Source: Amblyomma americanum (Eukaryota > Arthropoda > Arachnida > Ixodida > Ixodidae). From it: 64,000 bases of DNA. Below the pieces are notes generated by a model that saw only the letters and a list, made by a program, of their open reading frames with translations, made no database searches and was not told the DNA's origin. Positions within the stretch are counted from its first letter, which is position 1. The number at the start of each line of letters is the position of its first letter. Shown in pieces: positions 1-32,024 of this stretch. Both the position numbers and the translations under genes were made by a program. The stretch lies in NCBI RefSeq assembly GCF_052857255.1, contig NC_135498.1:161968124-162032123 (forward strand), read 5' to 3'.

Positions 1-3000
1 CCAGGCCTGGAGTGCGGCCTGATCTCGGTGACCAGAACCGACAACGCACTCTTTCACCAGAGCAGGATTTGGCCACCCTGGTGTAGTACTTGCCGCAACC
101 TTCTATGATCAAACCAATTAACCCTCGGCCCTCAGTCCCCAGCGGCTGCGGAGCAACTGACCACGGCGACGGTCAGACCTGTGCCGCAGCGGAGGGTGCT
201 AAGAATCTCTGGCTCCGGACAGGCCGCCATTGGAATCTGAACCTGGCAACGTTTAACGCTAGAACTTTAGCTAGTGAGGCTAGCCTAGCAGTGCTGTTTG
301 AGGAACTAGCGGGAATTAAATGGGATGTGATACGGCTTAGCGAAGCTAGGAGGACAGGTGAGGCATATACAGCACTAAAGGACGGACACATACTGTGCTA
401 TCGCGGGTTAGAGGATAGACGAGAACTAGGTGTGGGATTCCTCATTAATAAGGATATAGCTGGCAACGTAGAGGAGTTCTACAGTATTACCGAGAGGGTA
501 GCAGTTATAGTAATTAGGCTGAATAGGAGGTACAAGCTGAAAGTGGTGCAGGTCTACGCACCCACATCCAGCCATGATGACCAGACCGTTGAAAGTTTCT
601 ATGAGGACGTAGAATCGGCAATGAATAAAGTAAAATCGCAGTACACTGTACTGATGAGCGACTTCAATGCGAAGGTGGGCAAGAAGCAGGCTGACGACCA
701 CGCGGTAGGCGACTATGGGATAGGCTCTAGAAATAGCAGGGGAGAGTTATTAGTCGAATTCGCGGATAGAAATAATTTACGGATCATGAATACCTTCTTC
801 CGCAAACGAGAAAACAGGAAGTGGACATGGAAGAGCCCCAATGGTGAGATTAAAAATGAAATCGACTTCATACTATGCGCTAAACCTGGCATCATTCAGG
901 ATGTGGCCGTCCTCGGAAAGGTGCGTTGTAGCGACCACAGAATGGTAAGGTCTAGAATTAGCTTAGACTTGAAGAGGGATCGGAAGAAGCTAGTGAAGAA
1001 GAAGACCATTAACGAGTTAGCCGTAAGAGGGAAAGCACAGGAGTTTAGGTTAGCGCTGCAAAACAGATATTCGGCTTTAACTGAGGAAGATAATCTTGAT
1101 GTTCATTCAATGCACGATAATCTGACAACAATAATTACGTAGTGCGCAGTAGAAGTAGGCGGTAGGACAGTTTGAAAGGATACCGGGAAGCTATCTCAGG
1201 TGACGAAAGATCTGATTAAGAAGCGCCAAAACATGAGGGCATGTAACCTTACCGATAGAATAGAACTAACAGAGCTGTGAAAGTTAATAAATAAGCGCAA
1301 GGTAGCCGACATAAGGAAGTTTAATATGGAGAAAATCGAGCATGCTATAAAGAACGCAGGTAGCCTAAAAACAGTGAAGAGGAAACTAGGCATAGGTAAA
1401 AACCAGATGTATGCATTAGGAGACAAGCAGGGCAATGTCATTACCAATATGTATAAGATAGTTAACGTAGCCGAAGAGTTCTACACAGACCTGTACAGTA
1501 GCTAATGTAATCAGAGCGCTAATGAGAAAGACAGCAGTGCACAGCAATGCGTCATCCCGCCAGTAACGAAAGATGAAGTAAAGAAAGCCTTAGAAGCAAT
1601 GAAAAGGGGAAAAGCAGCTGGGGAGGATCAGGTAACAGCAGATCTGTTGAAGGATGGAGGGGACATCGTGCTAGAAAAACTAGCCACCCTGTATACGCAA
1701 TGCCTTATGACCTCGACTGTACCAGAAGCTTGGAAGAATGCAAACATTATTTTAATTCATAAGAAGGGAGACGCCAAGGACTTGAAAAATTACAGGCCGA
1801 TCAGCTTACTATCCGTTGCCTACAAAGCATTTACAAAGGTAATCGCTAATAGAGTGAGGGCAACGTTAGACTTTAATCAACCAAATGGTCAGGCAGGCTT
1901 TCGTAAAGGATATTCCACAATAGATCATATTCACACTATCAATCAGGTGATAGAGAAATGCGCAGAATATAATCAACCTCTATATATAGCTTTCATTGAT
2001 TACGAGAAAGCATTCGACTCAGTGGAAACCTCAGCAGTCATACAGGCATTGCGTAATCAGGGGGTAGAAGAGCCTTATGTCAAAATACTGGAAGATATAT
2101 ATAGCAACTGCACAGCTACTATAGTCCTCCATAAAGTCAGCAATCAAATTCCAATAAGGAAGGGCGTCAGGCAAGGAGACACGATCTCGCCAATGCTGTT
2201 CACCGCATGTTTACAGGAGGTATTTCGAGGCCTGAATTGGGAACAGTTGGGAATAAGAATAAATGGAGAATACCTTAATAATCTGCGATTTGCTGATGAC
2301 ATTGCCTTGCTGAGTCACTCAGGAGGTGAACTGCAAATCATGATCAATGAGTTAGACAGGCAGAGCAGATCGATGGGTCTAAAAATTAACATGCAGAAAA
2401 CCAAGGTAATGTTCAACAGCCTAGCAAGGGAACAACAGTTCACAATCGGCAGCGAGAGCCTAGAAATTGTGACGGAATACGTCTACTTAGGGCAGGTAGT
2501 GACAGCTGATCCGGATCATGAGAGGGAGATAACTAGAAGGATAAGAATGGGGTGGAGCGCATATGGCAAATTCTCGCAGATCATGAGTGGCAGTTTACCA
2601 ATTTTCCTCAAGAGGAAAGTGTACAACAGCATAATCTTACCGGTACTCACCTACGGAGCAGAAACGTGGAGGCTAACGAAAAGAGTTCAGCTTAAGTTAA
2701 GGACAACGCAGCGAGCCATGGAAAGAAAAATGATAGGTGTAACGTTAAGAGATCGGAAGCGGGTAGAGTGGGTGAGGGAACAAACACGGGTTAATGACAT
2801 CCTAGTCGAAATCAAGAGAAAGAAATGGGCTTGGGCAGGGCATGTAATGCGAAGGCAAGATAACCGCTGGTCCTTAATGGTAACGGAGTGGATTCCCAGA
2901 GAAAGTAAGCGGAGCAGGGGGCGGCAGAAGGTTAGGTGGGCGGATGAGATTAAGAAGTTTGCAGGCAAAGGGTGGATGCAGCTGGCAAAGGACAGGGTTA

Positions 3001-3063
3001 ATTGGAGAGACATGGGAGAGGCCTTTGCCCTGCAGTGGGTGTAGTAAGGCTGATGATGATGAC
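1..3063 (+). mobile_element. RTE-clade non-LTR retrotransposon, 5' end cut by the window edge
   Basis: The element runs from its 5' untranslated part at the window edge through an AP-type endonuclease and a reverse transcriptase. It ends at a short GAT/TGA-repeat tail (about 3050-3063) just after the ORF stop, and short microsatellite tails of this kind are usual for RTE elements. A second, 5'-truncated copy of the same family lies at 60408-60935 on the other strand and stops at the equivalent place, which fixes the 3' end. The target duplication cannot be checked because the 5' end lies outside the window. Confidence 0.93.
90..3044 (+). pseudogene. RTE endonuclease / reverse transcriptase ORF with four nonsense codons
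   Basis: This would be one polyprotein of about 985 codons that nicks target DNA and copies the element RNA into the nick (target-primed reverse transcription). The N-terminal ~300 residues are an EEP/AP endonuclease, with NARTL near the start and SDFNAKVG and CSDHRM towards the end. From about 1599 the reverse transcriptase has YRPISLLS, the GVRQGDTISP block and an intact FADD catalytic motif at 2289-2300, followed by the C-terminal domain with WAWAGHVMRR. The two long open stretches (90-1142 and 1599-3044) share one frame. They are separated only by in-frame stops at 1140-1142 (TAG), 1173-1175 (TGA), 1278-1280 (TGA) and 1503-1505 (TAA), with no frameshift. The endonuclease motif reads SDFN where GDFN is usual. 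The start codon is uncertain. Confidence 0.9.
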
Positions 3064-6000: not shown

Positions 6001-7725
6001 ACTTACAAGTTGCTTTGATGCACCAGGAAAGAGTCAACTTGGATTGTGGCACGCATTCTCCCGTTTCTTCTACAGTAACGCTACAATTATCTTACAGCGT
6101 TCATGAGTCCTGAGGGCAAATACACTGACGACGAGAGAAGCGCAATGCTACACATTCTTAAAAAATAAGCAGTTCATTACTTTCTCTGCGCTTCCTCTAA
6201 TTCTGGAGCTACCAGTATTTAGCCTTGGCATCGTCGTTAAAAAGTCCGTTTCTTCATTTGTGTCGAAAGTCCTGCATTTCTCAAAGTCATCGTACTCGCC
6301 AACTAATCCCCTTGTCTGCCTGCACGGCTTAGACCAGTTGCTTCGCATAATGACCTTAATCACCGATGACGCCACTCAGCATCATGTCTATTTATTGTGC
6401 TTATTTTTGTCAAAGGGAGGGGGAAAAATGTGAGTGCTGAATTGAGAGTTAAACATGTGAGAGAAGAATTATCGGGCAGCGCGTTTGCCTGCACGCGATT
6501 GCCTGCCACCACCTGAAGAATACGAGCGTGGCGAGAGGTACGTGTGCGCTCCTCTTTGACCGGGTGCGCGATCGTCTAAAGTCATTATTTTCCATGGTGA
6601 AACATCCATTTATCGAACCTATCTGTAAGTAAAATGAAGATCAGCTAAGAAGGACCTGTAGAATTAGAAAATGGCGGCCTACACGCACAACCTGAGCCTA
6701 TTAGGGATTTTCGGAAATCTGGGTAAGCTCATTGCTGGAGGCATACCCTTCGAAAATGCCATAAAGTAGGCCCACACCGCAGCGGCAGAGTTATAAAATC
6801 TGAATTGTTTCAGTGAAAGAAACGGTCAATGGCTTCATGCGTTTTTACACTTCCCGTCAAACTGCTCGAAGTATTCAGCAAAGGATCCTGTCGGCTGCGA
6901 GCGAAAGGTCAATCACCATTTTCATATCACTGCTTACTGTTGCGACTTAATGCCGTTCGTTGACCGCATGTGCGCGATCAATACGACCGGACGTAGATTC
7001 TCACCAAGGAAAAGGTATATTGTTTTCAACTGTTTATCGGTCGCCAAAGCGCTATGACGTCTTAAACTTCATTTTTATTAGCCTTTACCTCGCGGAACCC
7101 GGAACCCATGCCAAAATATAAGGACCTTTGGCCATCGTTCGGAATTAGGCACCCGGAGCACCGTACTTCGAACGTAAGCTGATTATCTTTCGCTGTGTTT
7201 CACTCTGGTTTCTGCCTGAGGGCTTGTATGAGCAGTTCTTGGCCAGAACGGAAATATGCCTATGATATCTTAGCCTGCAAGAGTTCCTGAACATCGTTTT
7301 GTACCCTGATGCACAGGGAGTGTAAAGCTTTAAAGAATTTTATTGAATTCAGCCCCAGCCAGCGAAAAAAGCCACTTTAGCTCAGAACATTGTATAGTAA
7401 CGTTGTATCACTGTGTGGTTACTCACTCTAACGCTTTAAGAAAGGCAGATCCACGAAGTACTGCGAATATTCTCCGTAAATTTAATGACAATATTTACAT
7501 GCATAAACTTTGGTTAGCTGTTGATGAAACCATAGTACGTGTCATGAGAGGGATTATCATGTGTTGCATAGCTTGAAGTTAATCACAATCTAGTAACTGG
7601 CGTTGTAGATGGATGAGAGTCGGCAGTAGAGGGTTCCGTTCGACAGAAGAAGAGAGGAAAGCCGCTCGACACAGTGCATTACTCGTTGCTTGTTCTATAA
7701 AATGAAAGTATATGACCCGGATGGT
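3064..7725. other. No recognisable gene
   Basis: AT-rich sequence in which all open frames are short and carry no motif I recognise. A pyrimidine-rich tract at about 4785-4830 leads into a GC-richer patch with a CACGTG E-box near 4871. It could be an LTR or promoter fragment, but nothing adjacent supports either reading. Confidence 0.5.
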
Positions 7726-9307: not shown

Positions 9308-9374
9308 GCATCCAATATGGTCTACGTCGGCATGTTTTCGCTCCTACTGCTCACGTTGGATCTTCTCTTTTTAG
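9308..9374 (+). other. Candidate first coding exon: signal peptide
   Basis: ATG at 9317 opens MVYVGMFSLLLLTLDLLFL plus the first base of a Gly codon. Nearly all of residues 7-19 are hydrophobic, a typical h-region. It ends in phase 1 at the donor GTGAGG (9375), the phase required by every mini-exon downstream. A pyrimidine-rich stretch ending in TTTTCAG at 9301-9307 could be an acceptor, which would imply a 5' UTR intron; otherwise the transcription start lies just upstream. Confidence 0.5.
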
Positions 9375-12300
9375 GTGAGGAAACTTTACGTTAGTAAACA
9401 ATAGTCTGCCTGATCCCAAACTAATGTACTGGAAAATGGAATCAGCGATTAGAATCGACAGAGTCAGTAACTCAGTGTGCTTTCATCACGAATGCATGAT
9501 GCACCCGAGGACCGTCAGGGCCACAGTTTCAAAGCCTGAGAAGAATTTTCGGAGGCCTTGATTTTTTTTGGTTCCCGTTAGAATACTGATCAAGACTGTG
9601 GTTAAACTGGTTTAACCTGTCAGCATTTTTAAACTAAGGGCTATCGCAAGAACAGAAGCATTAAAAACGGCGGGTCCAATAGCCTTCATAGAGAGAGGCG
9701 ACCTGTTTGAGGATTGGTATGAGGTTCAGCTTATCTCTTTGAAAAAAAAATTAGTAGAAAAATTGACGCATTTATTTCGTCAGTAAAAGCGTAACAGCTG
9801 AAATATTTGCTTCCCGTCTAATAGTTCCCCCAGCAAGTGAGTCTAGAGGACATGTATGTTGAAAAACCAGACAGGTATACACAGCAGGAGCGCAGAATGC
9901 AATGTTTTCGCGTCTCTCGCTGACATTTTATATCCACAGAGAAGGTAGAGATTGCCAGCTGATAACATGCATGCTCATTCGTGATCGATACCGGAAGACG
10001 CGTATCCGGACATGTCGGCCATAAGCAGTCCTTTACCCTAAAAAATGTCAGGGGTCTGGGGCCTCCTAGCGAGAGCAAGCGTGTCGGGAGGCTCGCTTCA
10101 GCCAACGGACTCCCGTTTCTAACGATTCCTGGCCTTGGCGATATGCTATTGTTGTCTCACTGGCATAGTCCATCTGAGAAAAGATAGACTCACTCACTAT
10201 AGGACTAACCCCAGTGGACGACTACCGATGCCAAACGGTGTCGACATGCCAACGCTTCTGATATAGAGACGTCTCCCACTGTAATCATATAGTTGCCTGA
10301 AGTTGGTGTCGCGGTGTGGGGTAACCACAGCTTCCACGATACACCATAATGGCGTCATCAGGCGGCCAGTCTCGACAAAAAAGCCTGTTCAGAAGGCGTT
10401 TCGGCGTCTGTAAACTTTTGTCTGGTACAGGAAGAACTCGCGAAAAATTCTCCGCTGGGATAGGCAATAGACTGTTGATGGGAGGAAATGTTCGAGCTTC
10501 ATCGCAAGTTTGACTAAATAAAAAGGAGATTAGACACTCATTCCTTTACCCAACAAGGCAAACATCAAAGAATGAACCCTTTTTTAGCCTCACAGTTTTC
10601 TTCAGGCATCAAAAAGAACAGCCAGATTCCTATAAAGTATCGTGCGAATAACTGGGCCAGCGGAGAGTAGCCACTTCATTACTACACCGCGTGTCCTACG
10701 GATTAACTTAGGAGGCAAGGAATATAATCCTGGCATAGGTCCTTATTATATATTAATATAATAAGCACCTGTGCTTCAACACATTGGATAGATCTGTTTA
10801 TCAGCTGAATATACTGCCTGCCAGAATTTCCAGAAGCATACAAGAAATGTATAAACTTTTGAATGGAAGTTGTGAACGGTTTTAATAGTTACGAAAAAAC
10901 TGAATACGTAGTTGGAGCAGCCAATATGTAGATAAGCCTCGAAAGTAAAATATCGCTGCAGTATTGAAAGCAATTAGGCATCCGTTCGCCTTGTATAATC
11001 TAGTACGAAACGAAATTTCATGCAGGCCATATTGTCTCGAATTCGAATCCTTTAAGCCATTTTGAAGAGAAGAATGGGTCTTTTCGGATTGTGAAGAAAT
11101 TTATCGTTATACTTATCATTTTCTTCAAAGAGAAGCATAAACATAGCAGAACAGGACAAGAAGAAGCCACGAACTTGATAATGCGAACGAAAGAATCGGT
11201 GGCGACGGTACCCCACAAATTTGCATTTTCGCAAACATGCATCCTTCGCAGCCAGAGTTGTGAAGGAATTATCACGAAAGTACATAGTACAATAGTGGTC
11301 GCAGACCTTTGGTACAGCGAATAAATAAAACGCTTTGGACTCAGAATATTTATCTAAGTTGTGATGCCTCTTGCAGATGCAATATACGATAAACGTCAAT
11401 TTAGTGGCGTTGTTTGCACCCTTTGCTGCTAATTGTTTCTTCCCGTAAATATTCGAGAGCGCAATGCAATCAATCAAAACCTGACGCAGGAGCTGCGGAA
11501 GAAATACCAGCAGGCAGCGCAGAGCGATCCTTAGGGGGAGGAGTAGGTATGTATGGCCAAATTGTGATCTGTAATAACCGACACTTTTGAATGATTTATT
11601 GTACATGTTTGCACAAAGAACCATTCTGGAAATTTGACAACAGCACAAACAGATATCTTACACTGGAAGAACAAGCCCAGACATGGCTTTAGTCCCGCTG
11701 TCCTTCGTGGAAGTCCAGGCGAAATGGTTACAGCACGATATAAGAAATATGAATAGCGCGGCGCCTACGCACCCCTTTGTTAAACTACGGCTTAAACGCG
11801 ACGTCATGGCAATCAGCCGAGGCAAAGGGCTGTAGGCCTCCTTTGAGCGACATATAACACTTTATCCTTGAGTTTACAGATAAGGTTCTGACTTTTGAGA
11901 TTTGGTGCAGATGCCAGTCTTTCAAGAACTCGGACTCAATTGGAAGCCTCAGCAGGCCCCAGGAGGAAACCTGTCCTAAAAACAGAACGTGACAACGGAA
12001 AACATTGCTTGTAAACTATGAGCTTTCTTATGATACTAAAACTCAAGGCATGATTCCAGTAAAGCAAATTTATACTAAATGAGGATGCAAAACACATTAA
12101 GCTTTAAAGAAGCTGTACACAGGAAAAATTTATAGAACCATGTTGCGCAAAATATCTTCTAATTATAGATACATTTCCGCCCTTGTTGAGATGTAATTTC
12201 ACACTTCGAAAGATTTATAATCTGAGGCACAACAATGGTGACATAATATGTTCAGCAAAATCTCAGAATATTATATGCCCCATCAATGATGCAAAACCGT

Positions 12301-15300
12301 TTAATGCGCGAAAAAAGTACCCGTGTTGTAAGGAGGCAGTCTTAACAAAAAATGCGTAACTAAAATAAACCTTGTCTGTAAACATCACTAAGGCTGGTTG
12401 GTTTTCAGCATAATGCCGCAAATAAGAAAATTATAAACAGTAGAAAACTACCGAGTGAATATTTTGGCAATGCCAGGGTCGTTATCTGCGTTTCAGAAGA
12501 TTGCCCATTTAAGCAATACATTAGAAGTGCACTCGGATAATTGCAGAGAACACATCGGACACAAAATGCTTTAAAAATACGCATGTTGACAGTGCTTAAA
12601 GTCTTGCAGGGGCACGTGATCAGCTTCATATCTTTGCTTAACGTCGTTCCTAGAAATTTAGTGTACACGTTTTCTTGTTAGCAATTAATCGCCTGAAACA
12701 CTAAATGATATTCATGCTGGAGCAAACAGCGGATTTGACACTGGCCAGGCTGAAGGGTCATTGGGCAGAGGAGTAGGTAATCGTAGTTAGATATGATTGC
12801 TTCTGATGTACATTTTTAAGAAAGAATTAAGCGCATTTTATTAGAAAATTTGTGCTCACGGAGCTAGAATAAAAGAGGCACCATTCGCAGTGTATCTCCG
12901 TCGAGATTATAAAACAAACGTCGTCAGTTTCAAATCCGCGCCAGCGTAGGTTGTTCCAAGCACTTTAGTGTATACCGTATTCTTTATCACCTGAAACATT
13001 TACTAATATCCATGCAGGAGGAAACAGCGGAATTGACACTGGCCGGGCTGAGCGATCATTGGGCGGAGGAGTAGGTAAGTGAAGTTAGATATGATTGGTT
13101 CGGATCTAGAATTTTACGAAAGAATTGGGTACATTATACTGAAAAATTTGGGCTCACGGAACACGAATAAAATGGGCACCATTCGCGGTGTATCTCTGTC
13201 GTGATTATCAAACTAACGTCGTCCGTTTCAAATACGCGCAAGCGAAGGTTGTTCCAAGCACTTTAGTGTAAACCTTATTCTTGATCACCTTATGGCTGCC
13301 TGAAACTCTTCATAATATCCATGCAGGAGGAAACAGCGGAATTGACACTGGCCGGGCTGAGCGATCATTGGGCGGAGGAGTAGGTAAGTGAAGTTAGATA
13401 TGATTGGTTCGGATCTAGAATTTTACGAAAGAATTGCGTATATTATACTGAAAAATTTGGGCTCACGGAACACGAATAAAATGGGCACCATTAGCGGTGT
13501 ATCTCCGTCGTGATTATCAAACTAACGTCGTTTAAAATCCGCGCCAGCGTAGGTTGTTCCAAGCACTTTAGTGTAAACCTTATTCTTGATCAGCTTATGG
13601 TTGCCTGAAACTCTTCATAATATCCATGCAGGAGGAAACAGCGGAATTGACACTGGCCGGGCTGAGCGATCATTGGGCGGAGGAGTAGGTAAGTGAAGTT
13701 AGATATGATTGGTTCGGATCTAGAATTTTACGAAAGAATTGCGTACATTATACTGAAAAATTCGGGCTCACGGAACACGAATAAAATGGGCACCATTAGC
13801 GGTGTATCTCCGTCGTGATTATCAAACTAACGTCGTCCGTTTCAAATCCGCGCCAGCGTAGGTTGTTCCAAGCACTTTAGTGTAAACCTTATTCTTGATC
13901 ACCTTATGGTTGCCTGAAACTCTTCATAATATCCATGCAGGAGGAAACAGCGGAATTGACACTGGCCGGGCTGAGCGATCATTGGGCGGAGGAGTAGGTA
14001 AGTGAAGTTAGATATGATTGGTTCGGATCTAGAATTTTACGAAAGAATGGGGTACATTATACTGAAAAATTTGGGCTCACGGAACACGAATAAAATGGGC
14101 ACCATTCGCGGTGTATCTCCGTCGTGATTATCAAACTAACGTCGTCCGTTTCAAATCCGCGCAAGCGTAGGTTGTTCCAAGCACTTTAGTGTAAACCTTA
14201 TTCTTGATCACCTTATGGTTGCCTGAAACTCTTCATAAAATCCATGCAGGAGGAAACAGCGGAATTGACACCCGCCGGGCTGAGCGATCATTGGGCGGAG
14301 GAGTAGGTAAGTGAAGTTAGATATGATTGGTTCGGATCTAGAATTTTACGAAAGAATTGCGTACATTATACTGAAATATTTGGGCTCACGGAACACGAAT
14401 AAAATGGGCACCATTCACGGTGTATCTCCGTCGTGATTATTAAACTAACGTCGTCCGTTTCAAATCCGCGCCAGCGTAGGTTGTTCCAAGCACTTTAGTG
14501 TAAACGTTATTCTTGATCACCTTATGGTTGCCTGAAACTCTTCATAATATCCATGCAGGAGGAAACAGCGGAATTGACACTGGCATGGCTGAGCGATCAT
14601 TGGGCGGAGGAGTAGGTAAGTGAAGTTAGATATGATTGGTTCGGATCTAGAATTTAACGAAAGAATTGCGTACATTATACTGAAAAATTCGGGCTCACGG
14701 AACACGAATAAAATGGGCACCATTAGCGGTGTATCTCCGTCGTGATTATCAAACTAACGTCGTCCGTTTCAAATCCGCGCCAGCGTAGGTTGTTCAAAGC
14801 ACTTTTAGTGTAAACCTTATTCCTGATCACCTTATGGTTGCCTGAAACTATTCATAATATCCATGCCGGAGGAAACAGCGGAATTGACACTGGCCGGGCT
14901 GAGCGATCATTGGGCGGAGGAGTAGGTAAGTGAAGTTAGATATGATTGGTTCGGATCTAGAATTTTACGAAAGAATTGCGTACATTATACTGAAAAATTT
15001 GGGCTCACGGAACACGAATAAAATGGGCACCATTAGCGGTGTATCTCCGTCGTGATTATCAAACTAACATCGTCCGTTTCAAATCCGCGCCAGCGTAGGT
15101 TGTTCCAAGCACTTTAGTGTAAACCTTATTCTTTATCACCTTAGGGTTGCCTGAAACACTTCATAATATCCATGCAGGAGGAAACAGCGGAATTGACACT
15201 GGCCGGGCTGAGCGATCATTGGGCGGAGGAGTAGGTAAGTGAAGTTAGATATGATTGGTTCGGATCTAGAATTTAACGAAAGAATTGCGTACATTATACT

Positions 15301-18300
15301 GAAAAATTCGGGCTCACGGAACACGAATAAAATGGGCACCATTAGCGGTGTATCTCCGTCGTGATTATCAAACTAACGTCGTCCGTTTCAAATCCGCGCC
15401 AGCGTAGGTTGTTCAAAGCACTTTTAGTGTAAACCTTATTCCTGATCACCTTATGGTTGCCTGAAACTATTCATAATATCCATGCCGGAGGAAACAGCGG
15501 AATTGACACTGGCCGGGCTGAGCGATCATTGGGCGGAGGAGTAGGTAAGTGAAGTTAGATATGATTGGTTCGGATCTAGAATTTTACGAAAGAATTGCGT
15601 ACATTATACTGAAAAATTTGGGCTCACGGAACACGAATAAAATGGGCACCATTAGCGGTGTATCTCCGTCGTGATTATCAAACTAACATCGTCCGTTTCA
15701 AATCCGCGCCAGCGTAGGTTGTTCCAAGCACTTTAGTGTAAACCTTATTCTTGATCACCTTATGGCTGCCTGAAACTCTTCATAATATCCATGCAGGAGG
15801 AAACAGCGGAATTGACACTGGCCGGGCTGAGCGATCATTGGGCGGAGGAGTAGGTAAGTGAAGTTAGATATGATTGGTTCGGATCTAGAATTTTACGAAA
15901 GAATTGCGTATATTATACTGAAAAATTTGGGCTCACGGAACACGAATAAAATGGGCACCATTAGCGGTGTATCTCCGTCGTGATTATCAAACTAACGTCG
16001 TTTAAAATCCGCGCCAGCGTAGGTTGTTCCAAGCACTTTAGTGTAAACCTTATTCTTGATCAGCTTATGGTTGCCTGAAACTCTTCATAATATCCATGCA
16101 GGAGGAAACAGCGGAATTGACACTGGCCGGGCTGAGCGATCATTGGGCGGAGGAGTAGGTAAGTGAAGTTAGATATGATTGGTTCGGATCTAGAATTTTA
16201 CGCAAGAATGGGGTACATTATACTGAAAAATTTGGGCTCACGGAACACGAATAAAATGGGCACCATTCGCGGTGTATCTCCGTCGTGATTATCAAACTAA
16301 CGTCGTCCGTTTCAAATCCGCGCAAGCGTAGGTTGTTCCAAGCACTTTAGTGTAAACCTTATTCTTGATCACCTTATGGTTGCCTGAAACTCTTCATAAT
16401 ATCCATGCAGGAGGAAACAGCGGAATTGACACCGGCCGGGCTGAGCGATCATTGGGCGGAGGAGTAGGTAAGTGAAGTTAGATATGATTGGTTCGGATTT
16501 AGAATTTTACGAAAGAATTGCGTACATTATACTGAAATATTTGGGCTCACGGAACACGAATAAAATGGGCACCGTTCACGGTGTATCTCCGTCGTGATTA
16601 TCAAACTAACGTCGTCCGTTTCAAATCCGCGCCAGCGTAGGTTGTTCCAAGCACTTTAGTGTAAACGTTATTCTTGATCACCTTATGGTTGCCTGAAACT
16701 CTTCATAATATCCATGCAGGAGGAAACAGCGGAATTGACACTGGCATGGCTGAGCGATCATTGGGCGGAGGAGTAGGTGTGTGAAGTTATATATGATTGG
16801 TTCGGAATTAGAACTTTACGAAAGAATTGCGTACATTATATTGAAAAATTTCGGCTCACGGAGCACGAATAAAATGGGCCCCATTCGCGATGTATCTCCG
16901 TCGTGATTATCAAACTAACGTCGTCAGTTTCAAATACGCGCAATCGTAGGTTGTTCAAAGCACTTTAGTGTATATCTTATTCTTTATCACCTTAGGGTTG
17001 CCTGAAACACTTCATAATATCCATGCAGGAGGAAACAGCGGAATTGACACTGGCCGGGCTGAGCGATCATTGGGCGGAGGAGTAGGTAAGTGAAGTTAGA
17101 TATGATTGGTTCGGATCTAGAATTTTACGAAAGAATTGCGTACATTATACTGAAAAATTTGGGCTCACGGAACACGAATAAAATGGGCACCATTAGCGGT
17201 GTATCTCCGTCGTGATTATCAAACTAACGTCGTCCGTTTCAAATCCGCGCCAGCGTAGGTTGTTCAAAGCACTTTTAGTGTAAACCTTATTCCTGATCAC
17301 CTTATGGTTGCCTGAAACTATTCATAATATCCATGCCGGAGGAAACAGCGGAATTGACACTGGCCGGGCTGAGCGATCATTGGGCGGAGGAGTAGGTAAG
17401 TGCAGTTAGATATGATTGGTTCGGATCTTATATTTTACGAAAAAATGCGCATATTTGATTGAAAAATCTGCGCTCACGGCGCACGACTAATTTTGGCATA
17501 ACTCTCGATGTATATCCGAAGTGATTATCAAATTAACGTCTTCAGTTTCAAATCTGTGTCACCGCAGGTTGTTCCTAGCAATTTAGTGTATACCGTATTC
17601 TTTTTATCCCTATGGCTGCCTGAAACACTTACTAATATCCATGCAGGTGGAAACAGCGGAATTGACACTGGCCGGGTTGAGCGATCATTGGGTGGTGGAG
17701 TAGGTAAGTGCAGTTAGATATGATTGGTTCTGATCTATGTATTTACGAAAGAAATGCGCACATTTGATTGAAAAATCTGCGGCCACGGCGCGCGATTAAA
17801 ATGGGCATCACTCTCGATGCATCTCCGTTGTAATTTAAAACTAATGTCATCTGTTTCAAATCCGTGTCAGCGTCGGTTGTTCCGAGCACATTAGTATATA
17901 CGGTATTCTTTATCATCCTATGGTCGCCTGAAACAGTTACTAATTTCCATGCACGAGTAAAGAGCGGAATAACACTGGCCGGGTTGAACAATCATTGGGT
18001 GGTGGAGTAGGTAAGTGCAGTTAGATATGATTGGTTCTGATCTATGTATTTACGAAAGAAATGCGCACATTTGATTGGAAAATCTGCGGCCACGGCGCGC
18101 GATTAAAATGGGCATCACTCTCGATGCATCTCCGTCGTGATTATAAAACTAATGTCATCTGTTTCAAATCCGTGTGAGCGTCGGTTGTTCCGAGCACATT
18201 AGTATATACGGTATTCTTTATCACCCTATGGTTGCCTGAAACACTTAATAATATCCACGCAGGAGGAAACAGCGGAATTGACACTGGCCGGGCTGAGGAA

Positions 18301-19645
18301 TCATTGGGCGGAGGAAACGGTAAGTGCAGTTAGATATGATTGCTTCTGATGTAGAATTTTACGAATGAAATGCGAACATTTTATTGCAAAATTTGTGCTG
18401 ACGGCGCAAGATTAAAATGGGCATCACTCGCTATCTGCATCTCCGATGTATCAAACGTTGGTAATTAGACTTTCAGAATTACCTTTTTGATTATAAAACC
18501 TTTATTATTTAAAGCAATTTTTTTTCACTTGCTAATTTACTGATGCAGTCATGTTAGGTGAGCCATCGTACGCAAATATTTTTTTTGCGCTGGAACTTGG
18601 CGTCAAGCTTGAGTGCAGCAATTACATTTAATCGAATATGCATAAGAGCGTGCTGTGCAAAAATGTGTGCAGATGCATTTCCAAACCTTGGGAGTATTCA
18701 GAAGTGTGTGCTTTAAGCATTTCTCACTGAGATGTCGCATGGCTTTCTGTCCTCAGATCGTATTCCTCGCATGTATTGTGCCCGTTAGTTGGCGCAGTTG
18801 AACAAAGTTACAGTAAAACCACAACTTCACTACAAAAGCTGCAAATGCTTGGCCATCGGTGAAGCCTTGGCCTTTAGCTTGAACAAATAAATACAAGAAA
18901 TAATGCCGGGACTTGGCCCCACGCGCACATTCGTAACGTGGTATTTATAACTTTTTATTAAGATTCCTGAGTGCAAAAGAAACGCATGCGCAGAATGGAA
19001 AAAAATTTCTTTAGTTGTGTGGTGCAGCTTCCAGGTTCGTAATATAGCGGGAACATTACAGTCATATGAAAGCTTTGAATATAGTATTTATTTGAGGTGT
19101 TTTCTTTTAGATCTTTAAATTTTAGATGTTTTATAGAGTTCTCGCGAGGGACAGATTGAAAGATATACAAATGATCTATGCTGAAAAACTGCCTCTTTTT
19201 ATTCTGGGCTTGACGACAAATATTCTATAAAATTCATCGCGGTCACTGAGGGATTATGGTGCTTGGCTGCTGACCAGAGAGACTCGGATTTGATCCCGGC
19301 CTTGGCGGTAGCATTTCGATGGATTTGAAATGCAACCCCATAAAACCCCATCAAGCCAAACATTCTATAAAAACGGCCTGTGCTAATTGTCGAAGTGGAT
19401 TGCTGGACAAATCAGTTTCAGCTATCATTTTCAAGATAATTAAATTTATTACGCACGGCCAGGAATTAATAAATAATTGGGACATTTCGTGAGAAGTTAC
19501 CGTGTTTCAATAAATCAACAGATGACATTACGATGCACTAATGAAGTTCTTTCTTTTAGTTAACCTTGAATTTTCTACGCACATAGTATTAATTACCTGT
19601 TGTCTTCATTCAGCGGACGCATTTCGGCCTGAAAATTATACATGA
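9317..19645 (+). CDS. Candidate tandem mini-exon gene for a secreted glycine-rich 19-residue-repeat protein
   Basis: This is a gene model inferred from splice signals and phase, not a recognised family. Exon 1 (ATG 9317) encodes a hydrophobic leader and ends in phase 1 at a GTGAGG donor. Twenty related mini-exons follow: 11490-11546, 12720-12776, fifteen between 13018 and 17395, 17647-17703, a broken one at 17955-18010, and 18263-18319. Typical ones are 57 nt, enter after CCATGCAG and leave at GTAAGT. In phase 1 each reads GGNSGIDTGRAERSLGGGV or a variant; the other two phases contain a stop. All introns are phase 1, so exons can be gained, lost or skipped without shifting frame. The product would be roughly 390-400 residues, signal peptide included, with about 37% Gly in the repeats and near-neutral charge. 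The exons at 10712 and 19614 are guesses. A secreted structural role such as tick cement is inference from composition only. Confidence 0.6.
10712..10738 (+). other. Possible small phase-1 exon (9 residues)
   Basis: AACTTAG precedes a 27-nt stretch and a GT follows. Read in phase 1 it gives GGKEYNPGI, which is Gly-rich, in frame and symmetric like the mini-exons. The acceptor lacks a good pyrimidine tract and the donor (GTCCTT) is weak, so this may be chance. Confidence 0.22.
11490..11546 (+). other. Divergent outlying 57-nt mini-exon
   Basis: The acceptor is CTGACGCAG and the donor GTATGT. The exon is exactly 57 nt and reads GAAEEIPAGSAERSLGGGV in phase 1, ending with the same AERSLGGGV as the array exons. 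Its flanking introns show no obvious similarity to the array introns, although the exon does. This is what purifying selection on a real coding exon would leave behind, and it is strong support for the gene model. Confidence 0.6.
12720..12776 (+). other. First array mini-exon, acceptor shifted by 3 nt
   Basis: The position homologous to the normal acceptor reads CATGCTG instead of CATGCAG, so AG is lost. An AG three bases inside (12721-12722) would give a 54-nt exon in the same phase, reading ANSGFDTGQAEGSLGRGV. The donor is GTAATC. Several amino-acid changes mark it as an old unit. Confidence 0.5.
13018..17395 (+). other. Fifteen homogenised core mini-exons
   Basis: Exons lie at 13018-13074, 13327-13383, 13632-13688, 13941-13997, 14250-14306, 14559-14615, 14869-14925, 15178-15234, 15488-15544, 15797-15853, 16102-16158, 16411-16467, 16720-16776, 17029-17085 and 17339-17395. 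The consensus peptide is GGNSGIDTGRAERSLGGGV. Variants: 14250 has DTRRAE instead of DTGRAE; 14559 and 16720 have DTGMAE; 16411 has a synonymous ACC. The units at 14869, 15488 and 17339 have CCATGCCG in place of CCATGCAG, losing the AG, but keep an in-frame AG 3 nt inside, giving 54-nt exons that lack one Gly. All donors are GTAAGT except GTGTGT after 16776. Confidence 0.62.
17647..17703 (+). other. Older mini-exon with Gly codons preserved by synonymous change
   Basis: The acceptor CATGCAG and donor GTAAGT are intact. The exon reads GGNSGIDTGRVERSLGGGV. Against the core consensus it has GTGG for GAGG (Gly kept), GTT for GCT (Ala to Val) and GGTGGT for GGCGGA (both Gly kept). The preference for synonymous changes at Gly codons fits coding constraint. 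Confidence 0.6.
17955..18010 (+). pseudogene. Decayed mini-exon
   Basis: This is the homologue of the 57-nt exon with one base missing (56 nt). The acceptor region reads GCACGAG instead of GCAGGAG. Any use would shift the frame and hit TAG at its end. The donor GTAAGT is still present. Because the neighbouring introns are phase 1, skipping it costs nothing. Confidence 0.65.
18263..18319 (+). other. Last array mini-exon
   Basis: Acceptor CCACGCAG, donor GTAAGT, 57 nt. It reads GGNSGIDTGRAEESLGGGN, with Glu for Arg and a final Asn replacing Val. The unit's similarity to the array fades at about 18455. Confidence 0.6.
19238..19352 (+). mobile_element. Ruka-type SINE with an internal deletion
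   Basis: It carries the head of the SINE (A-box-like GGTCACTGAGG, then TTGGCTGCTGACC, a B-box-like GGATTTGATCC and CCCGGCC, then CATTTCGATGGA). It then jumps to a tail-like AACCCCATAAAACCCC. The middle of the body is missing compared with the copies at 7726 and 51630. It lies in what would be the last intron of the mini-exon gene. Confidence 0.7.
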
Positions 19646-19724
19646 ACTGGTACTAATGCTGAACGTTTATGTCGCAGAGCTCTCGCAAGCATAGTAGCTT
19701 GTTCAGCTTTAAAAAATCAATAAA
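19614..19724 (+). other. Candidate terminal exon and poly(A) signal of the mini-exon gene
   Basis: A good pyrimidine-rich acceptor (CTGTTGTCTTCATTCAG, ending at 19613) precedes a short phase-1 frame reading ADAFRPENYT and stopping at TGA 19643-19645. An AATAAA occurs at 19719-19724. Other acceptors downstream (for example TTTTTTACAG before about 20184, or CCTTTAG before 20436) could serve instead, so this is only the nearest reasonable choice. Confidence 0.3.
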
Positions 19725-19739
19725 TTCTTCTAAACATGA

Positions 19740-22370
19740 CGAAAACAGTGCGGACAAGCGACGACACAAAAATAAATTCTAAGCCCTTTCATAACGAGCT
19801 GCCTGTGAATTGGTAATCACGTATATAAAGCAAACGTGCTGTCATGAAATTTAAGAGCGTGAACACGGCAGCGCATTGCCGATAGCCTCGAGCGCTACTT
19901 GTGGCGATACCTTAGTCCTGCTTTCCGCAACGTGGTGGAAGGGTTAATGCTGGTTTGCCTGCTTGCGGAAAGGCGAAGGACACATCCCCCTTTCCACATT
20001 TTTTTATGAAAGCGGCGCCGCGTAACGCCACCTTTAGGGTTCGAGGCTTTCGGGAATGCGCTGCCATGATCACGCTCATTGTCGAGTTCACCATTGTCAA
20101 GGTGGTGTCCCTCATCTGTTTTTCTTGAGTTATCCTAATGTCCTTAGAATGTTTACTCACCTGAGCTATCAACTTTTTTACAGGATTCTAATGGGCTCGT
20201 ATTATCGCAACCTACCTGCATATCCAAGAATCGCTTTCGTTCGATGAAGTCATCAAAGGCTCCTGCAGTCTGAGATCCTTGCAACGAAAGACAAATAAAT
20301 CAACGTTTTAAAGCATAAATAATGCGGTTTTGAGGGATAACTTGCTTTCAGATTTGTTGATTTTATTTGCTGCACTTGTCGGTACGTCTGTGCGCTGCCA
20401 TGATGTCTGCAGACATTGAATGCAAAACATCTTCCTTTAGATTTCACAGAAAGGAGAATGCGTAGATGCGGCTAGAGTCTCATAAAACTCAAGAACGAAG
20501 CGGGTTTTCCTCGTCAAAGGGTCCCCTTCCAGCCAATTGCGTCGGCCGGTTCTCGTGACCCCGTTGACGTGACAGCGCAGGCAGTGCCAGATAAAATGGG
20601 ATGGTTGCCTCCCTTCATGGTCACAGACCGTCCCCTCCAAGCATTATAGCGCCGCTGCCCGCATTGTCACAACTGTATGGCCATGAGAATTGGACAATGC
20701 CGTTGGCTGGAAAGGGTGCTTTGACGGTGAAAACCCCCTTCGCTCCTAAGCTGCAACCGACTATAGCAGTGTTTACCAGTGTACACCAATGTTGTGCCCC
20801 ACGGATATTCACTGCATGTATGCAGGTTTTATCACCGCCATATGCTGTGACAGGTCTATCGAGTAGAAGGCACTGGATTTCGCCCAACCAGAAAAAATAA
20901 CTGCCCAGACAATGAGCGTGTACAAGCCACTCATAGAGGAAGCTGGAGTTTAGCTTCTTGCCCCTATAGATCAGTTTAAGTTGGCATCGCGAGAATTTTA
21001 ATAGTCTAACCATTGCGCCACCTGCAGAAGCGCCATTTAGTTGCCGTCAAGTTCTTCTTAAGGAGCTTGTATTGTAGGAAAGGTCGCGGTAGGTTTCACT
21101 CACCCTGCTTCATGAAGCTGCTTTACCAGCATTCTGTCCGGTGTAATTAATGCTGCGAGGGGTGAACTGAGTGAAGCTTTCCATTTTCAGTCATCCACAA
21201 GATGTGAGCACTCGCTGCTCATTACTCGGCGCTCATTACTGTTTCTGCCACACATGCCGCAAAAGTAATGCCGCATGCACTCAAAAGTATTTTTTTAAAT
21301 CATAACAGCGGCCGGGCGACAAAATTGTCATATTGATTGTTCGACAGAGAAGTGTTAATGCGAAATATTGCTGATAATTTCTTTGCTTACCTACCTTTCG
21401 CCTCGCGTAAACGTGCAGGCCCTTTTAGTAGCGTATATTTCGGTCGAAATATCGCCTGCATGTTACTTAGTACTTCTCATTATACAAAAAAATATATCAT
21501 GGCTTGAGACGGCTCCACTGCGGCGCAATCTAGCATAGCCAGGCCAGCACCGAAATAGTAACAGGTCGCGCAACAGATGCTCCGAAAGCACATATAAAAT
21601 GACGGTATGAAAGCAAAACAGTGCCGCAACAGGCACTAATTATATGAACCTTAAAGCAAGGTTACTAATCACTAGTGATCCCGAACGCAGCCCATTAAAA
21701 AATTCCAGTCTTGTCTTCCTTTCTGATTTAACGCAGGGTATACGCGCTTCTCACAGATTTCTCTAAAGGCACGCTCTGAGGTCGGTCAGATTGTCTGACC
21801 CAGTCTGCCCGCCTTCCTTTGTATTAGAACGCATGTAAGACAGCCGAGACAAACGTTTTGCGGTCCCGCATGGGCCAGATTACCTTGGGGAATTAAGGGA
21901 GGCTGCAAACCTATTTGCTTTATCACTAAGCTCCAGTGATCGGCTGCCCATGCTGTACTGGTGGCAGTGTTCTAGAAGGGCGATTTCCTAGTTATCTCTA
22001 GCCTCCGTAAGGGTTCCAGCCGGGCAGCTACAAAGATCATGAGTGTAGAGCCTAAAAAGATTTGAAGGAGAATGCTTCAGGGTTCACCCACTTGCATCAA
22101 TGTCCTCTAATACTGGTTATTTCTTCAAGAGGGCTGCAAGAAATACATCAGCTCAGCTAGCTTAAGTATTTGTCTATCCTCCATCGGCATGTCTCTCTCG
22201 GTGTAAGTTGCCATCACGACACAAAAATATTTTTAGCTGGAACGAAAGTAATTATCTTCATATCGCGCTAGTTTGCACACAGAAAAAACATTCTCAATAA
22301 AACGCGGAGCTCGCGACTGATAAGGCTAGACGCCACCATAAAACCAACTGGACGGTTTACTGTTGTCCTT
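19740..22370. other. No recognisable gene
   Basis: Mixed AT-rich sequence with a GC-richer patch at about 20480-20700. A 10-bp inverted repeat (CTTTCCGCAA at about 19920 with TTGCGGAAAG at about 19963) and a small hairpin, GGTCAGATTGTCTGACC, near 21787 are present. Frames of up to 130 codons at 20600-21010 show no domain. Confidence 0.5.
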
Positions 22371-27965: not shown

Positions 27966-30610
27966 TTAGAGTGGTGGCGTAGGAGCGTCGTGATAAGGTT
28001 TGAGGCGGCATACATGGACGACGTCGGTAGAGGGGCCAGAGGACGATGGCGAGGACGCAAGGGGAGCAATTTCATAGTTCACGTCGGTGACTCGGCGCAC
28101 CACACGGTAAGGGCCACGGTAGTGAGAAAAGAGCTTCTCTGAGAGACCGACGCTGCTCGACGGCGTTCAGAGAAGGATGAGTGATCCGGGGTGATATTCG
28201 ACGGCCCGGTGCCGGCGGTCGTAGGCGGACTTCTGAGAAGCTTGAGAGGCACGGAGCCGACTACGGGCTATTTGGCTAGCCAGCGTGGCCTGGGCGATGG
28301 CGTCCTGAGCGTAAGCAGTGGTGGGGACCGAAGAGGGCAGCATGAGTGTGTCCAAAGGCAATAGGGGGTGCCTACCAAACAAAATGTAGAAAGACGAATA
28401 GCCTGTTGTGTCATGCCGTGAAGAGTTGTGCGCAAATGTCACATAAGGCAAGGCTGCGTCCCAATCGCGGTGGTCCGGTGAGACGTACATTGCTAACATA
28501 TCGGTAAGCGTGCGTTTGAACCGTTCCATAAGCCCGTTGGTTTGTGGATGGTAAGCTGTCGCGAGCTGGTGCTGCGTGGCACATGAACGAAGAATGTCAT
28601 CAATCACTCTGGACAGAAAATAACGACCGCGGTCGGTGAGCAGTTGACGAGGGGCGCCATGGTGAAGAATTACGTCTTGGAGAAGAAAATCGGCGACATC
28701 GGTAGCGCAGCTGGTGGGCAAAGCACGCGTGATGGCGTACCGAGTCGTATAATCAGTTGCGACAGCGATCCACTTGTTACCGGAGAGGGACGTGGGAAAA
28801 GGGCCAAGAAGGTCGAGGCCAACACGGTGAAAAGGTTCCGGAGGTACGTCGATGGGTTGTAGAAGACCGGCAGGCAAAGTGGAGGGCCTTTTCCGGCGTT
28901 GACACAGGTCGCAAGCGGCAACGTAACGCTTGACGGAACGATGCAGACCAGGCCAAAATAAGCGGTGCCACACTCGAGCGTACGTGCGGGACACGCCAAG
29001 GTGGCCGGCTGTCGGCAGATCGTGCAATTCCTTAAGGACAGAAGAACGTAGATGTTGAGGTATGACGAGGAGCAGCGGAGGACCGTCGGAGCGTAGGTTG
29101 CGGCGATACAAAATGTCATTCTGGAGCACATAAAGTTGCAGAGACGGAGATCGGTTTGCAGAGCGGAGGCCATCAAAGATAGGTTGTAAAGATGAGTCGT
29201 TGCGCTGTTCGTTGGCGATATCGGTGAGAGCAGTGATAGCTAAGAGGCAGGGTAGGGTCTCAGCGTCTTCGAGGTCAGGTGGCTCCACAGGGTATCGGGA
29301 TAAACAGTCAGCATCCTGGTGGTGACGACCGGACTTGTACACGACGGAGTATGAATACTCTTGAAGGCGCAAAGCCCAGCGACCAAGGCGACCGGTGGGA
29401 TCTTTTAGTGAAGACAGCCAACAGAGAGCGTGGTGATCAGCGACGACAGTGAATGAGCGGCCGAACAGGTACGGGCGGAATTTAGCGACAGCCCAGACAA
29501 GGGCGAGACACTCGCGCTCAGTAATGGAGTAATTTTGCTTTGCGGCGGAATGTAGGCGGCTGGCATAAGCGATGACGCGATCTTGGCCCTGTTGACGTTG
29601 GGCTAGCACGGCACTGATCCCATATCCGGAGGCGTCGGTGCGAATCTCTGTGGGAGACGACGGGTCAAAATGGGCTAAGATGGGCGGAGAGGTTAGCAAA
29701 TGAACGAGGGAGGAAAATGAGTTTTCTTGAGCAGGGCCCCAGATAAAGGGGGTGTCGTTCCTAAGAAGGTCGGTCAGGGGGCGAGCGATGCCGGCGAAAT
29801 CTTTGATAAAACGTCGAAAATACGAGCACAAGCCGACAAAGCTGCGCACATCTTTCGACGACCTAGGAAGAGGAAACTCCTTCACGGCTTGAATTTTGAC
29901 TGGATCTGGGCGTACACCAGAAGCATCAACCAGGTGTCCGAGAATAGTGAGTTGGCGGCGACCGAATTTGCATTCCGATGAGTTCAGCTGGAGTCCGGCG
30001 TTACGAAACACTCAAAATACTGGAGAGGCTTTCGAGGCGCGTGGCAAAAGTAGGCGAGAAAACCACAACATCGTCTAGGTAGCAGAGGCAGGTAGACCAC
30101 TTAAAGCCGCGAAGAAGGGAGGCCATCATTTGTTCAAAGGTAGCCGGCGCGTTACAGAGTCCGAATGGCATGACTTTAAATTGGTATAAGCCATCAGGCG
30201 TCACGAAGGCGGTCTTTTCACGGTCATTTTCATCTACGGCAATTTGCCAGTACCCCGATCGAAGATCAATTGAAGAGAAATATTTGGCGCCGTGGAGGCA
30301 ATCTAATGCATCATCTGTCCTCGGGAGAGGATACAAGTCTTTTTTTGTGATGCGGTTTAGGTGCCGGTAATCAACGCAGAAGCGCCAGCTGCCGTCCTTC
30401 TTTTTTGCCAGGACAACTGGAGAAGCCCAAGGGCTTGACGAGGGCTCGATGATGTCTTTTGCGAGCATCTTATTGACCTCTTGATTTATGACGGTGCGTT
30501 CAGCGCTGGACACGCGGTACGGACGTCTGTGAAGAGGAGCGGCATCACCGGTGTTTATCCGATGCGTCACCACAGAGGTACGAGTCAAAACACGGGCATC
30601 AAAGTCGAAG
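27966..30610 (-). pseudogene. gypsy pol: RT, RNase H, integrase; frameshifted, no protease
   Basis: RT starts near 30600 (VVTHRINTGD, ASPVVLAKKKDG) and has an intact YLDD box at about 30070-30081. A one-base frameshift near 30010 passes to the long frame 30011-28167. That frame holds the RT connection (LGHLVDASGVRPDP), RNase H (IRTDASGYGISAVL, YSITERECLALVWA) and integrase. The integrase has its HHCC zinc domain (HLGVSRT, CDLCQRRK) and the DDE residues (GLDLLG, LLTDRG, TNGLMERF). A further shift near 28165 leads to a C-terminal frame (GPYRVVRRVTDVNYEI) ending at 27966. No D-T/S-G protease motif exists between gag and RT, so this copy cannot mature its own proteins. Confidence 0.88.
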
Positions 30611-30617
30611 ATGTCGT

Positions 30618-31791
30618 CTAGTTTTTCCGCTTACGAGCGTCCGTAGGGGCCAGGAGAGGAGCGACGGCGTAGGGGCGAACGAGACTGCCGACGCAGTCTC
30701 GGCAGCAGGAGCGGCTGGAGCGGGAAATCTGGCCGTCAACGGTAGCACTCTGCTGGGCTGGAGGGGGCGTGAAGTGGCGGGGCTGGCCATCGTTGCGGTG
30801 AGAGCTTAGATGACTGTATGTGCTACGACGAGACCAATAACTGCGACAGTGACGGGAGATGTGACCAATGCGGTGGCAGAGGAAACAAATGGGTCGGTCG
30901 TCGGGTGTCCGCCAGTCGTTAGGGTTACGGCAACGTGGAGCGAAGTAGGAAGGTCGTTCAGGAGGAATCGCAGTGATTTCGAGTGGTGATGAAGGACGCA
31001 CAGGGCTGACGGGCTGGAGACCAAGGTTTGCAAGCTCTTGACGGACGACGGCTTGTACCATCGAGATGGTGGGCAAGTGGTTGTCGCCATCACGTAGAGG
31101 CAGGGAGGCAGGGGACATAGCTTCGAGTTCGCGTCGAATGATGCGGATCACATTTTCTGGAGGCGCAGGAGTTTGCCGGTGCAGCAGGTATTCACATGAG
31201 GAAGTCGCAGCCGTGTTGGGGAGGCGTGTGTACGGCTGACTAATACGTCTGCTTTTAGCTTCCTCGAAGCGGCGACATTCCCTAATAATGCCGTCGACTG
31301 TAGTGCAGTTCTTGCAGACGAGCAGGTTGAAGGCGTCGTCGGCGATCCCCTTCAACACGTGACCCACTTTGCCAGATTCGGGCATGTTATTGTCAACTTT
31401 GTGGCAGAGGGCCAACACGTCCTGAATGTAGGAAACAGGATTCCGTAGACGTTTGAGCTATGCACGCAAGCTCCCTCTTAGCGGCGAGTGTTCGGCCGAG
31501 CGGCCGTCCAAACAGCTCGCGCAGTTTCTGCTTGCAGACGTCCCAGCTGGTCAAATCATTTTCGTGAGTCTCGTACCAGACGCGGGCGGTGTCTTTTAGA
31601 TAGAAGATGACATTCGCGAGCATAAGAGTCGGATCCCAGCGGTTGTACGTACTCACGCGTTCATACATGTTGATCCAGTCGTCCACGTCAACGTTGTCGG
31701 TGCCAGAAAATGTCCCAGGGTCACGAGGGGAAGAAAGAATGAGCGATGGCATTGCCGATTGTGATGTTTGCTGGGAGGCGTCTTGGGTCAT
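30618..31791 (-). pseudogene. gypsy gag with one frameshift
   Basis: Gag assembles the virus-like particle. The N-terminal frame (31791-31393) has the retrotransposon-gag signature VIFYLKDTARVWYE. The C-terminal frame (31418-30618) carries the zinc knuckle CFLCHRIGHISRHC (C-x2-C-x4-H-x4-C, near 30845-30890) after a basic, proline-rich linker. Both frames are otherwise open and collinear, and a single small indel near 31447 separates them. The frame ends at about 30618, only tens of bases before RT similarity begins. Confidence 0.85.
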
Positions 31792-31870
31792 GGTGAGCGA
31801 AGTCAGCTGGCGGCCGCTGCGGAGCTCCGTCTTCGGTAGGCGTAGACGAAAGCCGCACCTCCACCAAATA

Positions 31871-32024
31871 TGTTGCGGGAAAGAATATATTTTCAGCTAT
31901 TTACAAAAACGAATGAACAGCTACGGGCGGCAATCAGAACACAGCCAGAGATGAGTTCTCGTCTTCTTCCTCGTCCACTCGTTCACTCGCTCAATGTCGT
32001 CGTCGTCGTCGTCTACCCGCTGCA
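31871..32024 (-). repeat. 5' LTR of the gypsy element
   Basis: A 154-bp copy of the 27783 repeat, with one extra CGT in the trinucleotide run and five substitutions. Followed by ATAT. Confidence 0.9.

Follow-up and report, generated by a model that had tools for sequence, protein, structure and literature searches.

A probable tandem mini-exon gene encoding a predicted secreted, glycine-rich 19-residue repeat protein in the tick Amblyomma americanum

A tandem array of short exon-like segments on the forward strand of the Amblyomma americanum genome very probably belongs to a real protein-coding gene of about 10 kb, with a predicted secreted, glycine-rich repeat protein as its product. The array was analyzed within a window of 64,000 nucleotides, i.e., the whole stretch of contig NC_135498.1 (GCF_052857255.1) from position 161,968,124 to 162,032,123. 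In our model, a signal-peptide exon is followed by the exon at 11490, by about 14 near-identical 57-nt phase-1 exons, and by a short terminal exon. With terminal exon A, the product has 314 aa and contains 15 spliceable repeat exons; depending on the model, its length is approximately 300 to 315 residues, of which about 33% are glycine. The architecture and the coding constraint are seen at the sequence level, and splicing, expression, secretion, and a structural role are predicted. Most sequence tests upheld the original prediction of a signal peptide joined to 57-nt symmetric exons that encode secreted, glycine-rich 19-residue repeats, although an excess of silent over replacement change is not seen in each of the edge units of the array.

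Tandem Repeats Finder detected a single large tandem array in the window (12691-18431; period 309, 18.6 copies, 92% matches), which agrees with the previous description of a repeat of about 309 bp that is organized as exon-intron units. In an ungapped scan of the whole window on both strands, in which matches with at least 30/57 identity to the array 57-mer were counted, 20 segments were found on the plus strand between 11490 and 18319, 19 of them 57 nt long and one with an indel, vs. best matches of 29/57 on the reverse strand and 28/57 in one shuffle (Table 1). The spacing is 298 to 310 bp for 19 of the 20 segments, and the gaps between them measure 241 to 253 nt in 18 of 19 cases and 1173 nt after 11490. 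A profile scan of the window revealed no more diverged 57-nt units above shuffle level; outside the known units, the best score was 25.6, vs. maxima of 21.4 to 30.8 in five shuffles. The protein repeat unit coincides with the predicted exon and is bounded by repeated introns. At about 19190-19233, a short reverse-orientation match to an array intron (47 nt, 79%, E 0.003) may represent either a stray piece of a unit or a chance similarity.

Table 1. Predicted features of the tandem mini-exon gene (positions within the window)
Feature	Position	Strand	Remarks
Signal-peptide exon	9308..9374	+	Acceptor CTTTTCAG then G; ATG at 9317; MVYVGMFSLLLLTLDLLFL; phase-1 end before GTGAGG
Outlying first 57-nt exon, GAAEEIPAGSAERSLGGGV	11490..11546	+	36/57 nt and 12/19 aa identity
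Degenerate unit, GANSGFDTGQAEGSLGRGV	12720..12776	+	Acceptor TG; weak donor GTAATC
Homogenized core array, 14 units of 57-nt exon plus ~252-nt intron	13018..17085	+	12/14 with AG/GT
Unit with consensus exon	17339..17395	+	CG acceptor; 3' intron 19% diverged
Edge exon, GGNSGIDTGRVERSLGGGV	17647..17703	+	AG/GT intact; 3/4 changes silent
Degenerate unit	17954..18010	+	Acceptor lost; indel within segment
Final repeat exon, GGNSGIDTGRAEESLGGGN	18263..18319	+	AG/GT intact
Candidate terminal exon A	19614..19645	+	ADAFRPENYT then TGA; AATAAA 73 nt past stop
AATAAA polyadenylation signal of candidate A	19719..19724	+	
Candidate terminal exon B	20184..20190	+	GF then TAA; AATAAA at 20294

The acceptor CCATGCAG is present in 13 of the 20 units and CCATGCCG in three (14869, 15488, and 17339; CG), while CCACGCAG precedes unit 18263 and TGACGCAG precedes 11490; unit 12720 has TG at this position, and the acceptor of unit 17954 is lost beside the indel. 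Donors are more uniform, with GTAAGT in 17/20 units, GTATGT in 11490, GTAATC in 12720, and GTGTGT in 16720. Overall, AG...GT is retained in 15/20 units, and the other five, including the one with the indel, all fail at the acceptor, which leaves about 15 exons that can be used as predicted. The earlier description of the typical unit was thereby confirmed, apart from the quarter of the units without a usable acceptor. When each segment is taken as a 57-mer of fixed length up to the donor, no stop interrupts phase 1 in any of the 20 units, whereas stops occur in phase 0 in 19/20 and in phase 2 in 19/20; the expected single open phase is therefore found (20/20 vs. 1/20 in each of the other phases). 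Unit 17954 is open only as such a fixed 57-mer: if reading begins at the acceptor that it once had, its length is 56 nt and the shifted frame meets a stop. The frame is kept in each of the 15 units with AG/GT, and the sole indel unit is one with a broken acceptor. GC content is 0.586 in the exons and 0.400 in the introns. The acceptors of the array have weak pyrimidine tracts, and that of 11490 lies no higher than the top 9.5% of AGs. The three units with CG have a CAG-to-CCG change in common and carry a GAG three bases downstream, which resembles a NAGNAG arrangement; entry at this site is possible and would be in frame, with the exon losing one glycine.

The window was also searched for an exon that could supply a signal peptide, with a filter that required an ATG, a hydrophobic stretch resembling a signal peptide, and a good donor. 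The uniqueness of the exon at 9317-9374, which is the sole phase-1 candidate on both strands (two nested ATGs, one exon), rests on relaxed cutoffs (2.1 and 3.5) and altered window handling, since stricter ones (hydrophobicity of 2.6, donor of >4) listed nothing, this exon included. The same filter gave one phase-0 candidate at 50943-50967. Ten shuffles, each of a single strand and with only the base composition preserved, produced a single phase-1 case; acceptor scores of >3 did not occur, compared to 4.1 for the exon that starts at 9308. According to approximate metazoan matrices based on general knowledge, the donor at 9374 scores among the best 0.6% of GTs and the acceptor among the best 1.2% of AGs of the plus strand. 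A predicted signal-peptide exon in matching phase upstream of the array is hence present as proposed, but the distance of 3 to 9 kb given for it has to be corrected: it ends 2.1 kb 5' of the first unit and 3.6 kb 5' of the core array. Joined to 11490, from which the Ala-Ala after the signal peptide is derived, position 9374 reads MVYVGMFSLLLLTLDLLFL-GAAEEIPAG, and the junction LFLGAAEE places small residues where signal peptidase cuts, which we take to be a normal-looking site. Further upstream, at 7116-7179 on the plus strand, a TATA-like ATATAAGG followed by a donor-like GTAAGC was noticed by eye; it could represent a promoter and a 5'-untranslated exon.

Exons A (19614) and B (20184) compete as the end of the gene, and both are plausible on their sequence. 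The first codon of exon A is completed by the G of exon 18263, and its acceptor ranks third among the 15 listed for exon starts between 18331 and 20600; the acceptor of exon B has the best score among those listed and lies above that of exon A. Between the two candidates, an imperfect inverted repeat is located at 19855-20077 (56-nt arms, 82% complementary, with a 111-nt spacer), possibly a small transposon.

Exons and introns of the array have diverged to different extents from the core consensus. In the units at the edges of the array (12720, 17339, 17647, 17954, and 18263), 24/284 exon sites differ vs. 275/1240 intron sites (Fisher p 2e-8), and in the 14 core units, 7/798 vs. 79/3520 (Fisher p 0.011); these p-values are optimistic, because some differences are common by duplication and the sites are hence non-independent. 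Unit 16720 accounts for 22 of the 79 core intron differences, and 5/741 vs. 57/3268 remain without it (p 0.03). The two edge units that retain AG/GT show a sharper difference between exon and intron (9/114 vs. 146/496) than do the three whose acceptor is broken (15/170 vs. 129/744). Low divergence extends over the exon and one further 19-column bin, i.e., about 19 alignment columns past the exon, and then stops. The introns themselves are homogenized in the core, where 13 of 14 lie within 2.8% of the core consensus and one differs by 8.7%; the five edge introns differ by 15 to 39%.

The codon pattern points in the same direction to a modest degree. Pooled over eight non-consensus units, a set that leaves out unit 17954, pS and pN are 0.139 and 0.080 in the proposed phase, 0.111 and 0.099 in phase 0, and 0.081 and 0.112 in phase 2; the silent excess is thus greatest in the proposed phase. 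Individually, it is matched by units 11490, 14250, 16411, and 17647. Unit 12720 is even (0.12 and 0.13), the core variants 14559 and 16720 lean slightly to replacement (0.04 and 0.03), and in 18263, which is spliceable, pN exceeds pS (0.11 vs. 0.03). This missing silent excess in the edge units 12720 and 18263 would be expected if a formerly functional tandem-exon gene were now a decaying relict whose array persists as a satellite, and decay of the array is possible, given the loss of the AG acceptor in 5/20 units and the indel unit that runs into a stop. We nevertheless regard a relict as unlikely, because the spliceable units are in frame (15/15), exon variation is lower than intron variation in the recent core too, both with and without unit 16720, and a signal-peptide exon is still accompanied by candidates for the terminal exon.

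As for the composition of the predicted product, the 314-aa model comprises 103 Gly, 31 Ser, 28 Arg, 19 Glu, and 16 Asp residues but only two prolines and two tyrosines, and it contains no Cys, Lys, His, Trp, or Gln. Its predicted tryptic peptides include SLGGGVGGNSGIDTGR. From composition and repetition, we regard an extracellular structural or matrix role (secretion, cuticle, or cement type) as the most likely one, with about an even chance. An RTX-like beta-roll was ruled out, since GGNSGIDTG does not fit the general nonapeptide spacing rule, as was a dibasic neuropeptide precursor, since the repeat has no dibasic sites. A polypeptide precursor of another kind would rely on the motif R-A-E-R|S of the repeat, of which R-A-E-R is an R-X-X-R, the minimal furin-type site, at which convertases would release copies of a 19-residue peptide. 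R-X-X-R occurs in register in 11/15 spliceable units (14/20 overall) and is thus absent from four of them (11490, 14559, 16720, and 18263), which include the first and the last; in addition, the oldest unit has kept the SLGG-type tail and not the arginine pair, and by general rules the repeat has neither a dibasic nor an amidation pattern. Processing into peptides is accordingly unlikely, and a secreted structural or matrix protein is the preferred reading.

The most diverged member of the series is the exon at 11490, which differs from the array 57-mer at 21/57 nt and has retained the length, the phase, both splice dinucleotides, and 12/19 residues. Only 0.2% of 200,000 neutral simulations with 21 random substitutions gave a segment that was both open and as similar. 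The exon has a pS of 0.57 and a pN of 0.29, and in its last nine codons, which encode the retained ending AERSLGGGV, all four changes are silent third-position changes (chance, ~0.009). Its flanks have no significant similarity to the array stretches at about 12758-13387 and 17340-18600 among the best 20 matches, where the lowest E values are 0.85 downstream and 1.7 upstream. The earlier observation of an outlying exon that shares length, phase, and AERSLGGGV ending with the array, next to sequence unlike the array stretches compared, was therefore confirmed. Near-identical units with a period of 309 bp are ordinary for satellites, but it is very unlikely that the array is a noncoding one, with a 57-bp block conserved for another reason and with the signal peptide and the open phase due to chance, in view of the conserved length, phase, splice sites, and silently changed tail of 11490 within unlike flanks, the signal-peptide exon in matching phase, and the end of low divergence about 19 alignment columns past the exon.

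When a protein database was searched with spliced models of 171 and 314 aa, no match reached E ≤ 10 among the 7985 or 7987 candidates with the most shared words that were scored within the length limits of the search. A control of the scoring step, which excludes the upstream shared-word step, found the self match and 6/6 artificial arrays with 10 to 60% of the unit positions altered (weakest E, 3e-14). In Pfam, a repeat of four units was without a match, and no family reached E ≤ 1 for a shortened spliced model of 162 aa (signal peptide and terminal exon A). Among viral contigs, 48 pattern matches contained no confirmed relative, and relatives were also absent from the plasmids and prokaryote contigs searched, as expected for animal DNA. 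The protein hence looks new within the sets searched. The protein database includes insect proteins and may have little or no tick content; since the sets are perhaps poor in tick sequence, this absence is weak evidence on the animal's own relatives. Six peptide strings from the repeat had no occurrence in the searched literature, and no such gene was described in the literature found for ticks together with tandem exons and glycine-rich saliva repeats, or for mini-exons and tick genomes. Likewise, the available parts of the literature on exons and introns of tick cement genes contained nothing on this kind of gene, and those retrieved for exon duplication and for microexons in ticks concerned only lacewing venom and only schistosomes or endoparasites, respectively.

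It had been stated that no gene of this form is described, a claim that fails in view of the homogenized exon-intron pairs in some spider silk genes (available part of PMC9779670). In the flagelliform and the Argiope MaSp2 silk genes, repeat units are delimited by repetitive, homogenized introns, which have been suggested to promote unequal crossing over and homogenization, and the tick gene resembles these genes in the secreted glycine-rich repeat, the intron-bounded units, and the homogenized introns (available part of PMC9779670). It differs from them in having 57-nt exons and a model product of about 314 aa with only two prolines and two tyrosines and without poly-Ala or GPGXX. Exons of spider silk genes are larger than 57 nt, and spidroins carry conserved N- and C-terminal domains; the shortened 162-aa model matched no spidroin family or other Pfam family (E ≤ 1). 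On the scale of single exons, the counterpart is the micro-exon genes (MEGs) of schistosomes, whose exons of 3 to 81 bp lie between introns of up to 5 kbp and whose products are secreted, as in our model with its short exons between introns and its secreted product (available part of PMC10526429). Unlike in MEGs, one unit was amplified here together with its own intron. The exons of MEGs mostly differ in sequence and are not copies of one unit, and a MEG is defined by having most of its coding sequence in short symmetric exons that follow a signal peptide. With 15 repeat exons of 57 nt and phase 1-1, the model works like such a gene, and it may or may not be related to MEG proteins in sequence (no match at E ≤ 10 among the 7985/7987 candidates scored). 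Judged by its sequence, the gene would work like tandem silk-type genes, at the exon scale of MEGs.

Among tick proteins, glycine-rich groups are treated in the available part of PMC3998978. The predicted product is similar to tick glycine-rich or cement proteins, e.g., the GYY, 64P, and RIM36 types, in being secreted, rich in glycine, and repetitive, but it lacks the Tyr-rich GYY motif and Cys and had no sequence match in the protein searches. The comparison with 64P and RIM36 refers to general descriptions of these proteins. Glycine-rich cement proteins would be recognized by a GYY/GYG motif or by similarity, and the model has two Tyr in 314 residues and no match in the protein database, which may have little or no tick content.

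The duplicated unit would comprise an exon and its intron, and the array would be homogenized by unequal crossing over, because near-identical introns pair readily. Comparison of the array with itself at an offset of 2470 bp gave 95 to 100% identity per 100-base bin over about 13000-14300, 90 to 92% between about 14300 and 14600, and 98 to 100% over 14600-14900; at an offset of 619 bp, identity was 94 to 100% over 14500-15200. To judge from these values, blocks of the array were duplicated recently at offsets of 2470 and 619 bp, an outcome expected from unequal crossing over between near-identical introns. Because the exon length of 57 nt is divisible by 3 and all spliceable exons are phase 1-1, the gain, loss, or skipping of units alters only the length of the protein, and copies with a dead acceptor are tolerated because skipping leaves the frame unaffected. 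The gene might represent a family of secreted proteins specific to its lineage, in which the identical 57-nt symmetric exons of the array vary in copy number and thereby determine protein length. Acceptor loss and skipping would generate ladders of isoforms within and between individuals, and a silk-like architecture would have evolved independently at mini-exon scale; we assign slightly less than an even chance to this proposal. If true, exon-intron units can amplify and homogenize in a satellite-like manner yet stay coding, and coding arrays extend to an exon size of 57 nt, below those of spider silk genes. The array would then be suitable for studying in-frame exon skipping and length variation of secreted proteins. 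Repeat masking readily hides tandem-exon genes from annotation, and secreted repeat proteins of this kind may accordingly be undercounted in arthropod genomes.

Several transposable elements are located in the window on both sides of the gene. A non-LTR retrotransposon at 87-3044 (plus strand) consists of two open reading frames (ORFs), the first for an endonuclease (Exo_endo_phos_2) and the second, of 512 codons, with RVT_1. The latter is 67% identical over 77% to a record labeled Klebsiella pneumoniae, which is probably animal DNA in a bacterial assembly; among the 120 matches listed for this reverse transcriptase ORF, the 14 rows with an organism label comprise 11 insects and 3 prokaryote labels. 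At 28167-31896 on the minus strand lies an LTR retrotransposon, apparently of the Gypsy type, with RNase H, an integrase zinc finger, and the integrase core within 28167-30011, and with ORFs at 30001-31896 that correspond by eye to the reverse transcriptase and gag. A second non-LTR element occupies 39858-43119 (plus strand); the domain scan found no Pfam domain at 42310-43119, a sub-threshold match to RVT_1 at 41489-42028 (E 0.053), and the endonuclease domain at 39858-40514.
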